From Elusimicrobia bacterium HGW-Elusimicrobia-2 (lineage in GTDB: Bacteria > CG03): a stretch of 6,767 nt of DNA. The stretch spans positions 1 to 6,767 of the forward strand of contig PHAM01000078.1 of the NCBI GenBank assembly GCA_002841685.1. The letters run 5' to 3'. Both the position numbers and the translations under genes were made by a program. This document shows, one piece after another, positions 1,759 to 6,767 of the stretch. Within the stretch, counting starts at the first letter, position 1. Each line of letters begins with the position of its first letter. The notes below the pieces were generated by a model. The model was not told the origin of the DNA and ran no database searches. It saw only the letters and a program-made list of their open reading frames with translations.

Positions 1759-3048
1759 GTGGAGAAAGAAACCTTAAAAAATATTATTGCTGACCAAATA
1801 GAGACAGCGGGGGAGAAGTCCGGCAGAGAAAAAGTGATTTCAAGAGAAGGTATGGAAAAATGCAGAAAATATCTTGCTCATCCGAATATTCTCCTTATAA
1901 GCGGCCTTCGACGCGCGGGAAAGTCCGTTTTTTCCAATTTGCTCGTGAGAAACGAAAAATATGTTTTTCTTGATTTTGATGATGAGCGGCTGATTGAGTT
2001 TAACACAAAAGATTTTAATCTTCTGTTAGAATGTTTTTACGAAATTTCTGATGGTTTCGATCACATTTTACTTGACGAAATTCAGAATGTCAGCGGATGG
2101 GAACTTTTTGTGAACAGATTGAGAAAGAAATACAAGGTCGTTGTTACCGGTTCCAATGCGAATTTGATGAGTGGTGAAATGGCGACCCGGCTTACGGGCA
2201 GATTTCTTGATTTTACTCTTTTCCCCATGAGCTTTAGAGAGTTTCTGGAATTTAGCGGCATCGCAATGAAAAAGGCGTCTATTTATTCCACAAAAGAAAG
2301 AAGCAGAATAATTACCGTGTTTGAAAAATATCTGCAGAACGGCGGTGTCTTTGATTTTTATAAATTCGGCCCGGAATTTCTGAGAAACCTCTGGAGATCG
2401 GTTATTATGAAGGACATTATTGTCCGTTATAGTGTAAAATATCCCATTGTTCTTGAAGAACTGGCGCTGTTCCTCGTGAATTGTTTTACGTCAAAAATTT
2501 CGCCGAGCAGGATATGCAGAAGTCTTAAAATAAAAAGCCCGCACACGATAAGCGCATACATCAAATACCTTGAAGACAGTTTTCTTATTTTTACGGTCAA
2601 AAAATTTTCATACAAGTTAAAGGAACAGTTATCCGCGTTTAAAAAAGTGTATGTGACCGATAACGGCGCGGTAAATTCCCTTATTTTTAAGTTTAGCGAG
2701 AACAGGGGGAAGTTTCTGGAAAATATTGTTGCGGTTGAACTGAAGCGAAGATCCTTAAGAGAGGGGTTAGAAATATTTTATTGGGACAACTATAATGCCG
2801 AATGTGATTTCGTGGTCAAAAAAGGTCAGGCGTTTTGTTTTGCCTGTCAGGTGTGTTCTCATATTTCGGCGATTAACAAAAAACGGGAAATTGAAGGTTT
2901 GAAAGCGGCAATGAAGGAGTTGGGGATTAAAAAAGGCTTTATTCTGACATCATCAACAGAAGATAGTATTTTGAGCGATGGTTTTAGAATAGAAATTATT
3001 CCTGTCTGGAAGTGGCTGCTGAAAAATGGGCGGGAGGAGAATAAATGA
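1759..3048 (+). CDS. AAA ATPase with C-terminal DUF4143 domain
   Basis: This is a 429-residue cytoplasmic ATP-binding protein of the AAA_14/DUF4143 type. Visible motifs in order are Walker A GLRRAGKS (49-56), FLDFDDERL (70-78), Walker B ILLDEIQNVSGWE (103-115), sensor segment TGSNANLMSGE (130-140) and the arginine-containing TRLTGR (143-148). PMSFREFL (156-163), which typically follows in this family, is also present. The C-terminal half has the DUF4143 signature FLENIVAVELKRR (319-331), YWDN, ECDFVV (348-353) and CQVC (363-366). That layout resembles PD-(D/E)xK nucleases, but the usual catalytic E-x-K is replaced by QVC, as is common in this family, so nuclease activity is not implied. Length is normal and all ATPase motifs look intact. 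The family is widespread and its physiological role is poorly defined. The stop codon overlaps the next start (ATGA, 3045-3048), so it is probably co-translated with the membrane protein downstream. Confidence 0.93.
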   Translation: MEKETLKNIIADQIETAGEKSGREKVISREGMEKCRKYLAHPNILLISGLRRAGKSVFSNLLVRNEKYVFLDFDDERLIEFNTKDFNLLLECFYEISDGFDHILLDEIQNVSGWELFVNRLRKKYKVVVTGSNANLMSGEMATRLTGRFLDFTLFPMSFREFLEFSGIAMKKASIYSTKERSRIITVFEKYLQNGGVFDFYKFGPEFLRNLWRSVIMKDIIVRYSVKYPIVLEELALFLVNCFTSKISPSRICRSLKIKSPHTISAYIKYLEDSFLIFTVKKFSYKLKEQLSAFKKVYVTDNGAVNSLIFKFSENRGKFLENIVAVELKRRSLREGLEIFYWDNYNAECDFVVKKGQAFCFACQVCSHISAINKKREIEGLKAAMKELGIKKGFILTSSTEDSILSDGFRIEIIPVWKWLLKNGREENK

Positions 3049-3935: not shown

Positions 3936-4826
3936 ATGAAGAAAAATATTTTGAAGGTGATAGTGTATGTTTTTGTTGTGAGTAGTGTTATATATTCCGT
4001 GATTGCCAGAATAGGAATGACGGGATTACTAAGTTGGTTTGTTGACGTGCCGTCGCTGTGCTTTATTATTGTGGGTGTTCTTTTTACGGGACTGAATTTC
4101 AGGTTGAAGGATATATTTACGGTTTTGCTGTATCCGTGGCATAAAGATAAAGTGTCGGCAAGACCGCAATATTATAAAACTGTTCTGAGGGAAGTTAACA
4201 GAAATATATTCCGTTTTGCTTTGCTGGCGTTTGTGCTTGGAGTTTATTTTATTTTCGCGTACTATGAAAACTTAGATATTGGCAGAGTATCCGCCGGACT
4301 GCTAATCAGCTCATTGCCGCTATTGTATTCATTTGTGATTATGATATTTGTCGTCAGGCCGATTGAGACGGCAATCAGCCGAATAGGGGAGGAAGAAGTA
4401 CAAAAAATTGATGACGCCGGAGAACCGGCTCACCCTATCGGGAAAAAGATAACAAAGGCGTTATTTGTATTATGGAATATATTTGCTGTAGTGGCGCTAT
4501 TTTTCTTGATAACGGCAATTGTTATTGAATTTAATGACGGGAGCAAAGAAACAAAACATAAAGTCACGGGCAAGGTCAAAAAATTATACGCCGCAAGCTG
4601 GGATGGGGGTGAACAGCGTTACGCTCTTGTTGAAACCGACGACGGCAAAGGTGAGGCTGTAGTTGAAATTTTCAGATACGAAAGCGAGAAAATTAAAGAG
4701 GGGGCTGAGCTTCCGTTGATAATAACATATAGCGATTCGCCGGGGCTTAAGCGTATGTATGCAAGAATAGACATAGAAGAAGCTTTTCGTCTCAAAAGTT
4801 TAAAAAAGGGGAAAAATAATGATTAG
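3936..4826 (+). CDS. Five-helix membrane protein with a MotA-like core and a soluble C-terminal domain
   Basis: This is a 296-residue protein with probable transmembrane helices at about 5-25, 36-54, 90-110, 118-140 and 174-198, then about 95 polar residues forming a small beta-rich domain. Two segments resemble MotA-type stator or proton-channel proteins. FVDVPSLCFIIVG (35-47) is like the MotA 'F-D-x-PSL..V.GG' segment. FVLGVYFIFAYYENLDIGR through LPLLYSFVIMIFVVRPIE (99-144) aligns with the last two MotA helices, with the same Tyr-to-Pro spacing as 'TTLYG.....F.PIA'. In contrast to MotA, the cytoplasmic region between helices 2 and 3 is only about 35 residues, the proline that opens MotA helix 3 is not seen, and a fifth helix plus soluble tail is added. 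Homology is by eye and no MotB-like partner lies in the window. A GGAGG at 3924-3928, 7 nt before the ATG, sets the start. It abuts the previous gene and overlaps the next by 8 nt. Confidence 0.82.
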   Translation: MKKNILKVIVYVFVVSSVIYSVIARIGMTGLLSWFVDVPSLCFIIVGVLFTGLNFRLKDIFTVLLYPWHKDKVSARPQYYKTVLREVNRNIFRFALLAFVLGVYFIFAYYENLDIGRVSAGLLISSLPLLYSFVIMIFVVRPIETAISRIGEEEVQKIDDAGEPAHPIGKKITKALFVLWNIFAVVALFFLITAIVIEFNDGSKETKHKVTGKVKKLYAASWDGGEQRYALVETDDGKGEAVVEIFRYESEKIKEGAELPLIITYSDSPGLKRMYARIDIEEAFRLKSLKKGKNND

Positions 4827-6516
4827 CAAGAAAAAAATTGTCCTGATAGAAATTATTAAAGGTATTCTTATGACAGCCGTTCTTTGGTTAATATTTTATT
4901 TTCTGCTGATTTTAACGGTGCCGCTTTTTTCCGCGTTAAGGAATTTTCTACCGAATTGGATAGGCATATTCTTGTTTATCCCGATATATTTTATTACTTG
5001 GATTGCTTTCGTGAAATTTTCCCGCATGGAAAAGGCCTGTGAATATGCGTTTGGAATTGAGCGAAATGTGGTTCCAGGTAAGAAGATAATGGGCTTAAAT
5101 TTCAAGCAGTATGAATACAAAGAAATACAGAAAGACAGCCGGTTATTTGTTCATCGGACTTTGTACTGGGGCGCGGCGCTGGTATTGATGTGTATTGTAT
5201 CTCATGTATCCGTCGATAAAATATATGTATCAAAATTGGAAACACAAATAGCTAATTTGAAATCGCAAAATATTCCCATTTCCATGGAAGATTGTTATCG
5301 TGAAATTCCTGAGGGCAGGAATGCTTCGCCGTATTTAGAAAAGGCCAATGAAGAATTCAGTTCTTTTTGGAAGCAGAAGAGGGGACTTCCCGTGTTGCGC
5401 GACCGGCAGATAAGAGAGTATTTATCCTCGCTTAAATGGAGCGGGAAACAAGAAAAAGATATTGACGGGCTGTTAAAATACGCCATGCCTGAACTGAGAA
5501 AAATCTATGATATTGTTAGGCGATATGATTACTGGGCGGTCAACGATTATAAGAATATAGAGAAAAATCCGCTCGAGTATAAAATTCCAAAATTAGTTAA
5601 TTATACGAGGATCAGTCAGCTTTTTTGTTTAAATGCGTTAAAATTAACAAGGCGGGGCCAATATACTCAAGCATGGAATTGGCTCCATGCTGCCGTTAAG
5701 ATTTCAAAATTTATTGCAGAACATCCGTGGCTGATATCTAAGATGATATCTATTGAGCAGCAGAGAATTGTATCTCAGGCTATTTTGAGGGTATTGTTGG
5801 AGAATCCGACGGCTAAGATTCCCGGCCAGCTTGTTAATGATTTGACTGAACTTTATAAACTGAAATTAGTTACAGATGGAATGAAATGTGAAATGGCTTC
5901 AGCTTTAGATGTGTATAGTTGGCTAATGAAAAATCCAGACGAAAGGACTTTTTCAGTTTGGTTTTCGAAAGATAATATGTTTTATAAATTATTCGGTAGG
6001 GTTTTAAGATTGCCTGGGGTGTTGGAACTGAATACCATAGAACACATAAATGCGATTATGGAGATAATTAAAAATGATGATGCGGATTGGCCGTATGCCA
6101 AAAATCCGGACTTGTTTGATGATGCCTACCAGGGTATCAGTAATTATCCGGAATGGCCATTTTATTTTATGAAAATAGTAATGCCCCGTTGGACAAATCT
6201 GTATAAAAAGGAATATGAGGCGGATACAAGCGCGCAAATTGCAATACTGAACAATGCCTTGCAGAAATTTAACAGAACAAAGAAACGATATCCAAATAGT
6301 CTTGCCGAATTGGTGCAGGGCAGTTATGTGAAAGCCGTTGACATAAAGGATAAGTTTTCCGGTCAGGAACTGATATTCAAGAAAAGCAAAGATAAATTGC
6401 TTATATATAGTGTCGGCTGGAATCTAAAAGACGACGGTGGCGAATTTGAAGCGCTCGACGAGCAGCAGCACAAAAAAGATATTGGAATCAAAATTAAAAA
6501 AAGGTGGCGTTCTTAA
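4819..6516 (+). CDS. Large membrane-anchored protein with a pseudopilin-like C-terminal segment
   Basis: This is a 565-residue protein of unknown function. Three hydrophobic helices at about 15-40, 47-66 and 113-131 anchor it. A short heptad-like stretch follows (SKLETQIANLKSQ, 138-150), then IPISMEDCYREIPEGRNASPYLEKANEEF. That sequence is of the kind found at the start of the extracytoplasmic part of many large hypothetical proteins from planctomycete-like bacteria. Residues about 190-460 are mostly helical with many aromatic residues. The C-terminus (about 468-545) has ADTSAQIAILNNALQKF, RYPNSLAEL, the DKFSGQEL motif and SVGWNLKDDGG. This resembles the globular tail of type II secretion pseudopilins (YP.SL..L, D.F.G, S.G....DGG). 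There is no N-terminal pilin-type leader, so it is not itself a pseudopilin. The ATG overlaps the preceding gene by 8 nt and has GGGG at 4808-4811, 7 nt upstream. It is the last gene of the cluster and ends about 16 nt before the insertion sequence, apparently intact. Confidence 0.87.
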   Translation: MISKKKIVLIEIIKGILMTAVLWLIFYFLLILTVPLFSALRNFLPNWIGIFLFIPIYFITWIAFVKFSRMEKACEYAFGIERNVVPGKKIMGLNFKQYEYKEIQKDSRLFVHRTLYWGAALVLMCIVSHVSVDKIYVSKLETQIANLKSQNIPISMEDCYREIPEGRNASPYLEKANEEFSSFWKQKRGLPVLRDRQIREYLSSLKWSGKQEKDIDGLLKYAMPELRKIYDIVRRYDYWAVNDYKNIEKNPLEYKIPKLVNYTRISQLFCLNALKLTRRGQYTQAWNWLHAAVKISKFIAEHPWLISKMISIEQQRIVSQAILRVLLENPTAKIPGQLVNDLTELYKLKLVTDGMKCEMASALDVYSWLMKNPDERTFSVWFSKDNMFYKLFGRVLRLPGVLELNTIEHINAIMEIIKNDDADWPYAKNPDLFDDAYQGISNYPEWPFYFMKIVMPRWTNLYKKEYEADTSAQIAILNNALQKFNRTKKRYPNSLAELVQGSYVKAVDIKDKFSGQELIFKKSKDKLLIYSVGWNLKDDGGEFEALDEQQHKKDIGIKIKKRWRS

Positions 6517-6563
6517 CATTGTGCATGATAACCCTAATTATTCATACTCTTGACGATAAAAAG

Positions 6564-6592
6564 TTGTAAAAGGCCTCCTTTTATGGTATAAT
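6564..6592 (+). promoter_or_regulatory. Transposase promoter with extended -10
   Basis: TTGTAA (6564-6569) and a perfect TATAAT (6587-6592) are separated by 17 bp. The bases TGG directly before TATAAT provide an extended -10 (TGn). The -10 box also lies within a short palindrome, GGTATAATACC (6585-6595). Predicted transcription starts near 6599 and leaves a leader of about 39 nt before the transposase ATG. One arm of a 12-bp inverted repeat fills the spacer between the two boxes. Confidence 0.75.
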
Positions 6593-6633
6593 ACCGTCGG
6601 GAAAGACAAAATACAAAACCCAAAAGGAGGCCT
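6571..6633 (+). repeat. 12-bp inverted repeat that can mask the transposase ribosome binding site
   Basis: AGGCCTCCTTTT (6571-6582) is the exact reverse complement of AAAAGGAGGCCT (6622-6633), with a 39-nt loop. The right arm contains the whole Shine-Dalgarno sequence of the transposase. The left arm lies upstream of the predicted transcription start of the element's own promoter. RNA made from that promoter therefore lacks it, while RNA reading in from the upstream operon contains both arms. The outcome is inferred: read-through RNA should fold and block transposase translation. Confidence 0.7.
6624..6630 (+). promoter_or_regulatory. Strong Shine-Dalgarno sequence of the transposase gene
   Basis: AAGGAGG lies 7 nt before the ATG at 6638. 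It is a near-ideal ribosome binding site, unusually strong for a transposase gene, and is embedded in the right arm of the 12-bp inverted repeat. That makes masking by base pairing plausible. Confidence 0.85.
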
Positions 6634-6637
6634 AAGC

Positions 6638-6767
6638 ATGGAAACACTTTGCAAATCCCAATGCTCGTTTTCATTTTACAGAAAAAAGGAGGTGGTTGTC
6701 AATTTTCGCGGGGGAGAAATAACAACAGATGCCGGATTAATACCGTTGCGTGAATTTGACCAGAGGT
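6638..6767 (+). CDS. IS1380-family transposase, N-terminal 43 residues (partial, 3' end outside window)
   Basis: The frame is open from ATG 6638 to the end of the window and begins METLCKSQCSFSFYRKKE. Residues 22-41 (NFRGGEI, TTDAG, LREFD) match the conserved N-terminal motif of IS1380-family DDE transposases ('F.GG.ITSDAG...LRE.D'). The catalytic region would lie further downstream and is not in view, so activity cannot be judged. The start is fixed by AAGGAGG 7 nt upstream, a promoter at 6564-6592, and the lack of any earlier in-frame ATG near the site. A second Shine-Dalgarno-like sequence (AAAAAAGGAGG, 6682-6692) lies inside the gene, but no good start codon follows it at the right spacing. 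The product would cut and join DNA at the element's ends. Confidence 0.85.
   Translation, partial: METLCKSQCSFSFYRKKEVVVNFRGGEITTDAGLIPLREFDQR

Follow-up and report, generated by a model that had tools for sequence, protein, structure and literature searches.

A candidate fold-back repeat over the transposase start of an IS1380-family insertion sequence

Introduction

The insertion sequences IS10 (Tn10) and IS50 (Tn5) use fold-back protection against outside transcription, and IS10 relies in addition on an antisense RNA and on Dam methylation. Among the members of the IS1380 family are IS1380A and also ISEcp1, which is known to mobilise resistance genes. In IS200, one stem-loop occludes the transposase ribosome binding site and another terminates impinging transcripts (as summarised in PMC3196728). 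In ISPpu9, which has a long 5'-UTR and two small RNAs, mRNA secondary structure controls transposase translation (PMC8450116).

Here we analyse an inverted repeat in an IS1380-family element at the end of a 6,767-nt stretch of bacterial DNA, referred to as the window at its full length. As in IS10 and IS50, the repeat lies at the left end of the element, with the ribosome binding site of the transposase under its distal arm and its proximal arm upstream of the element's own transcription start, which is here a predicted one. Unlike those IS4-type elements, ours has a transposase of the IS1380 family; moreover, the arm sequences in IS1380 change from lineage to lineage, and the first arm is placed between the -35 and -10 boxes. 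The locus shares with IS200 (PMC3196728) an RNA structure over the ribosome binding site, here a predicted one, but IS200 combines a local stem-loop with a terminator, whereas the window has no terminator-like site. It shares with ISPpu9 an mRNA structure over transposase translation, and differs from it in the proposed switch between inside and outside transcription. We regard the locus as a new instance of a known mechanism, well supported by sequence comparison and modelling. Its novelty in IS1380 is provisional: a search of the open literature, with most subscription papers outside it, found no description of fold-back in this family, in agreement with the original prediction, whose author knew of none.

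Results and Discussion

The relevant features of the window are the following.

4819..6516, + strand: co-directional upstream open reading frame, which stops 15 nt short of the element; probable origin of read-through RNA
6532..6767, + strand: left part of the IS1380-family element, running past the contig end; boundary from the comparison of copies
6532..6549, + strand: left terminal inverted repeat CCCTAATTATTCATACTC, common to copies in G000 (the genome of the window) and G001
6564..6569, + strand: putative -35 box TTGTAA (TTGAAA in the congener copies)
6571..6582, + strand: 5' arm (anti-Shine-Dalgarno) AGGCCTCCTTTT, within the promoter spacer
6584..6592, + strand: putative extended -10 box TGGTATAAT, with the variants TGGTATGAT (second copy) and TGGTACAAT (congener)
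6599, + strand: start predicted for the element's own RNA by its distance from TATAAT (6587-6592)
6622..6633, + strand: 3' arm AAAAGGAGGCCT, which spans AAGGAGG (6624-6630), the Shine-Dalgarno sequence
6638..6767, + strand: transposase gene, first 43 codons (METLCKSQCSFSFYRKKEVVVNFRGGEITTDAGL...), truncated by the contig end

Identity among the copies begins at CCC(T/C)AATTATTCATACTC, outside of which the flanks of the second same-genome copy and of six congener copies differ. This left end, CCC(T/C)AATTATTCATAC, matches the TA.CC...ATTATTCA of relatives from other phyla and is a terminal repeat of the IS1380 type. The contig ends 130 nt into the transposase gene, and the 43 N-terminal amino acids alone gave a weak match to PF13701 (DDE_Tnp_1_4; E 1.7e-4, 20.4 bits vs a cut-off of 34.7); relatives at 48-64% identity include full-length IS1380-type transposases. 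Contig ends interrupt the copies found in G000 and G001, a search of G000 found no further transposase parts, and a scan of viral contigs with the N-terminal alignment found no relative.

No terminator-like site was found in a scan of 6400-6767, in line with the original prediction, which had seen none between the operon stop at 6516 and the element. In the window and in three congener copies (L060, L062, L064) the element lies inside a co-directional open frame or follows its end within about 15 nt, which is the situation that a fold-back device would serve. The window also holds a 522-aa open reading frame (116-1684) with many short (Y/R)GIQ(L/I)G-type repeats and no Pfam match, and an ATPase gene of the AAA_14 plus DUF4143 type (1759-3048).

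The original prediction was of a perfect 12-bp inverted repeat, with one arm in the spacer of the transposase promoter and its partner over the Shine-Dalgarno sequence. All three parts are borne out. The arms are 100% complementary (12/12 pairs, 39 nt between them), the predicted promoter TTGTAA-17-TATAAT (10/12 matches, TG at 6584-6585) brackets the first arm, and the AAGGAGG spanned by the second arm ends seven nt before the ATG at 6638. In dinucleotide-preserving shuffles of the 5' region, 12 bp was reached in 0/2000 cases, with a null mean of 4.7. These shuffles, together with the control genes, control windows and held-out set described below, rule out a chance origin of the pairing. A weaker repeat, 6560-6582 with 6684-6706 (74%), was rejected, its second arm being altered in the congener (GGAGG to GGATG).

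We consider it very likely that the inverted repeat is a fold-back device which blocks transposase synthesis on RNA entering from outside. Read-through RNA would carry both arms, and the first arm, transcribed earlier, would pair with the Shine-Dalgarno arm as soon as this emerges and hide the ribosome binding site, so that, we infer, such RNA would stay untranslated. RNA from the element's own promoter would begin past the first arm and leave the Shine-Dalgarno sequence free. With the first arm placed within the -35/-10 spacer, one DNA stretch would act as promoter and silencer, and the element's own RNA would be guaranteed to lack the first arm. The presumable benefit is that the element could insert beside or inside an active gene without triggering transposition.

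Predicted folding agrees with this reading. In the window, the modelled cost of opening the region -16..+3 (positions relative to the start codon) is 14.6 kcal/mol for read-through RNA vs 4.5 for the own RNA from 6599, the closed and open states that the prediction had foreseen for RNAs starting upstream of the first arm and at 6599; these energies are modelled without the ribosome and without the kinetics of folding during transcription. When the upstream part was shuffled, the read-through opening cost was reached in 0/60 cases for the window and matched in at most 2/60 for any of 18 elements. The predicted effect is not uniform across elements, and a few GC-rich ones are predicted to be structured in their own RNA too: L105 shows little difference (16.7 kcal/mol for own RNA vs 18.1 for read-through RNA), and L081 gave 13.5 vs 24.5 kcal/mol.

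The reading further depends on where the element's own RNA starts. Seven leaders, namely that of the window and those of L081, L107, L097, L101, L102 and L117, have a -10-like hexamer at -51 or -50; in four more (L120, L136, L123, L126) it lies at -48 to -45. The putative -10 near -51 recurs in lineages without other shared leader sequence, and in the leaders that have such a hexamer the first arm directly precedes it, lying either in the spacer or on the -35. Because the first arm is 5' of the putative -10, the own transcript would begin near -39, without it; that own-promoter RNA lacks the first arm is what we infer from promoter prediction. A simple scan gave no clear sigma-70 promoter in the Acidobacteriota, L067, L116 and L118 leaders, several proteobacterial leaders being among those without one.

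The position of this hexamer bears directly on the strongest alternative, in which the main mRNA starts upstream of the first arm and the hairpin brakes translation in general until a factor, a small RNA or temperature opens it. Such a brake would fit a conserved structure that hides the Shine-Dalgarno sequence and AUG, and it has a precedent in the 5'-UTR structure and small RNAs of ISPpu9 (PMC8450116). Against it stands the -10-like hexamer that several unrelated leaders have at -51/-50, between the two arms; in the window, moreover, the element extends only 39 nt 5' of the first arm, and the terminal repeat takes up much of this. We judge the brake unlikely.

Whether the pairing itself has been maintained is seen from the relatives. 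In the second same-genome copy (L002/L039), which differs in the promoter (TATAAT to TATGAT) and in the leader (ACCGTC to ATCGTC), both arms are identical to those of the window. Among the six congener copies, which have the promoter TTGAAA/TACAAT, three (L057, L060, L062) cover both arms, both unchanged, and L063-L065 cover only the first arm, likewise unchanged. Promoter, loop and coding sequence vary among these close copies, and the arms are identical wherever covered. This identity proves little alone, because the Shine-Dalgarno arm has a separate reason for conservation. An internally deleted relic of the element (L005/L058; G003:C7, about 13226-13330) was also found, in which a deletion that begins ahead of the first arm and reaches the start codon has removed the promoter and both arms.

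Further relatives came from a scan of bacterial and archaeal genomes (43 relatives), and plasmid records added more; start codons of metagenomic relatives were set by eye from Shine-Dalgarno sequence, frame and similarity. We scored the longest perfect Watson-Crick helix between -95..-41 and -20..+5, counting those of at least 8 bp. Such a helix was present in 15/31 IS1380 leaders vs 1/35 unrelated flank control genes (Fisher p about 8e-16 for the 31-leader set vs control genes, some leaders being related and the lineages not fully independent). The choice of this statistic came after inspection of the first relatives, which gives weight to the held-out set and to the control windows. Seven of ten later leaders, two of them near copies of earlier ones, reached 8 bp with settings fixed beforehand (p about 5e-7). 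After thinning of near-duplicates, 19/35 lineages have a perfect helix of at least 8 bp at the Shine-Dalgarno/start window, compared with 0, 2, 0 and 0 of 35 in four downstream control windows (2/140 in total). We preferred perfect-helix length and downstream windows to an energy-based control in which elements exchanged arms. That control was weak (an element's own pairing came first in 11/25), since GGAGG/CCTCC is common to many arms and a GC-rich leader will pair with anything.

Leaders of Acidobacteriota, Planctomycetota, Nitrospira, KSB1, Calditrichota, Pseudomonadota and Bacillota share this geometry although their arms are unrelated, with a leader length of about 98-111 nt where the left end can be located. 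The arm reads AGGCCTCCTTTT in the window, GCAAAGGCCTC in L081, GCGGCCTCC in L105, ATAGCCAAC in L097, AGCTGTTT in L101, GGCAAGTTCCG in L067, CGGCATTGCCC in L118, CATCGGGTT in IS1380A (L119) and AAGGTGCTCC in L137. Between neighbouring lineages the two arms show compensating changes, as in L116 (TGCATCGGGCCT/AGGCCCGATGCA) vs L144 (TGCATCGGGGC/GCCCCGATGCA) and L126 (AGAACCCC/GGGGTTCT) vs L153 (AAGAACGCACT/AGTGCGTTCTT). The Acidobacteriota subfamily permits a base-by-base alignment, in which 98.6% of the pair cells are paired and four pairs carry two-sided changes (G-C to A-U and A-U to G-C among them), vs 32-51% paired and no two-sided changes when the partner is slid by one to three columns. These compensating changes within and between subfamilies show that the pairing is maintained by selection. 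Within the same subfamily, L071-L082 have a second hairpin, CTGGGT/ACCCAG, nested between the arms, also with one two-sided change.

The check that had been proposed, namely whether related leaders change both arms together, thus came out strongly in favour of the pairing, and with the predicted folding and a -10-like box 3' of the first arm it supports the fold-back reading. It also weighs against a second alternative, in which the transposase, a repressor or a host protein binds the arms as DNA and their pairing in RNA is incidental. The first arm of the window does belong to a short spacer palindrome (TAAAAGG-CCT-CCTTTTA), but most arms are non-palindromic, and the arms differ wholly between lineages while their mutual complementarity and the overlap with Shine-Dalgarno sequence or AUG persist. 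A subterminal transposase-binding site was rejected, since the arm is not repeated near the right end in L067, L077 and L101, the three copies with a right end found. We hold this alternative to be very improbable. Least probable of all is a copy-number control in which read-through RNA works chiefly in trans, its first arm being antisense to the transposase mRNA of other copies: identical arms among the copies within a genome would permit it, but there is no sign of a separate antisense transcript, and pairing within one RNA would be expected to be far faster.

Returning to the fold-back device, the pairing appears from these comparisons to be common in the IS1380 family but not universal. 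Among named members with the same transposase family, IS1380A, ISPa33 and ISAzs3 have 8-9 bp arms in the same places, with sequences unrelated to those of the window; in IS1678 the repeat is 12 nt long and carries one mismatch, again with an arm unrelated to the window's, and the arms of ISSsu5 are unrelated as well. A perfect helix of at least 8 bp is absent in 16/35 lineages, including ISPme1/IS1247 (L121/L124). The outward promoter of ISPme1 reportedly exceeds the promoter of its transposase about 150-fold in strength (PMC9330008), and these two helix-less elements may control expression differently. One may speculate, tentatively and with the odds rather against it, that a promoter-embedded fold-back is the ancestral rule of much of IS1380, retained over a very long time with arms rewritten together in each lineage, which could reduce cross-pairing of co-resident elements. 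If so, arm rewriting would let read-through RNA silence its own copy and not others.

A block on read-through, if true, would explain how IS1380-family elements can sit in transcribed genes without jumping. The lineage-wise rewriting of both arms provides an unusually clean natural test of RNA structure, and the idea known from IS10 and IS50 becomes directly testable in another large family.

Finally, the genome of the window holds further short sequences of note. At one contig end (L038/L154; G000:C44:1-90, minus strand), ACCTACCT precedes AAGTATAAT, and AGGTAGGT lies over the Shine-Dalgarno sequence of a short open reading frame (GGAGGTAGGTATG), in the same arrangement as in the window. At least 12 short repeats (L049, L038, L040-L047, L050-L052) have a terminal repeat of the same, IS1380-like type (e.g. 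CCTGCATTATTCATACTC), and they mostly break contigs. One of them, L049 (G000:C48), is complete, ending in TGAATAATCCGGG with CTAT on both flanks; from these ends and flanks, the short repeats look like MITEs mobilised by an IS1380 transposase.
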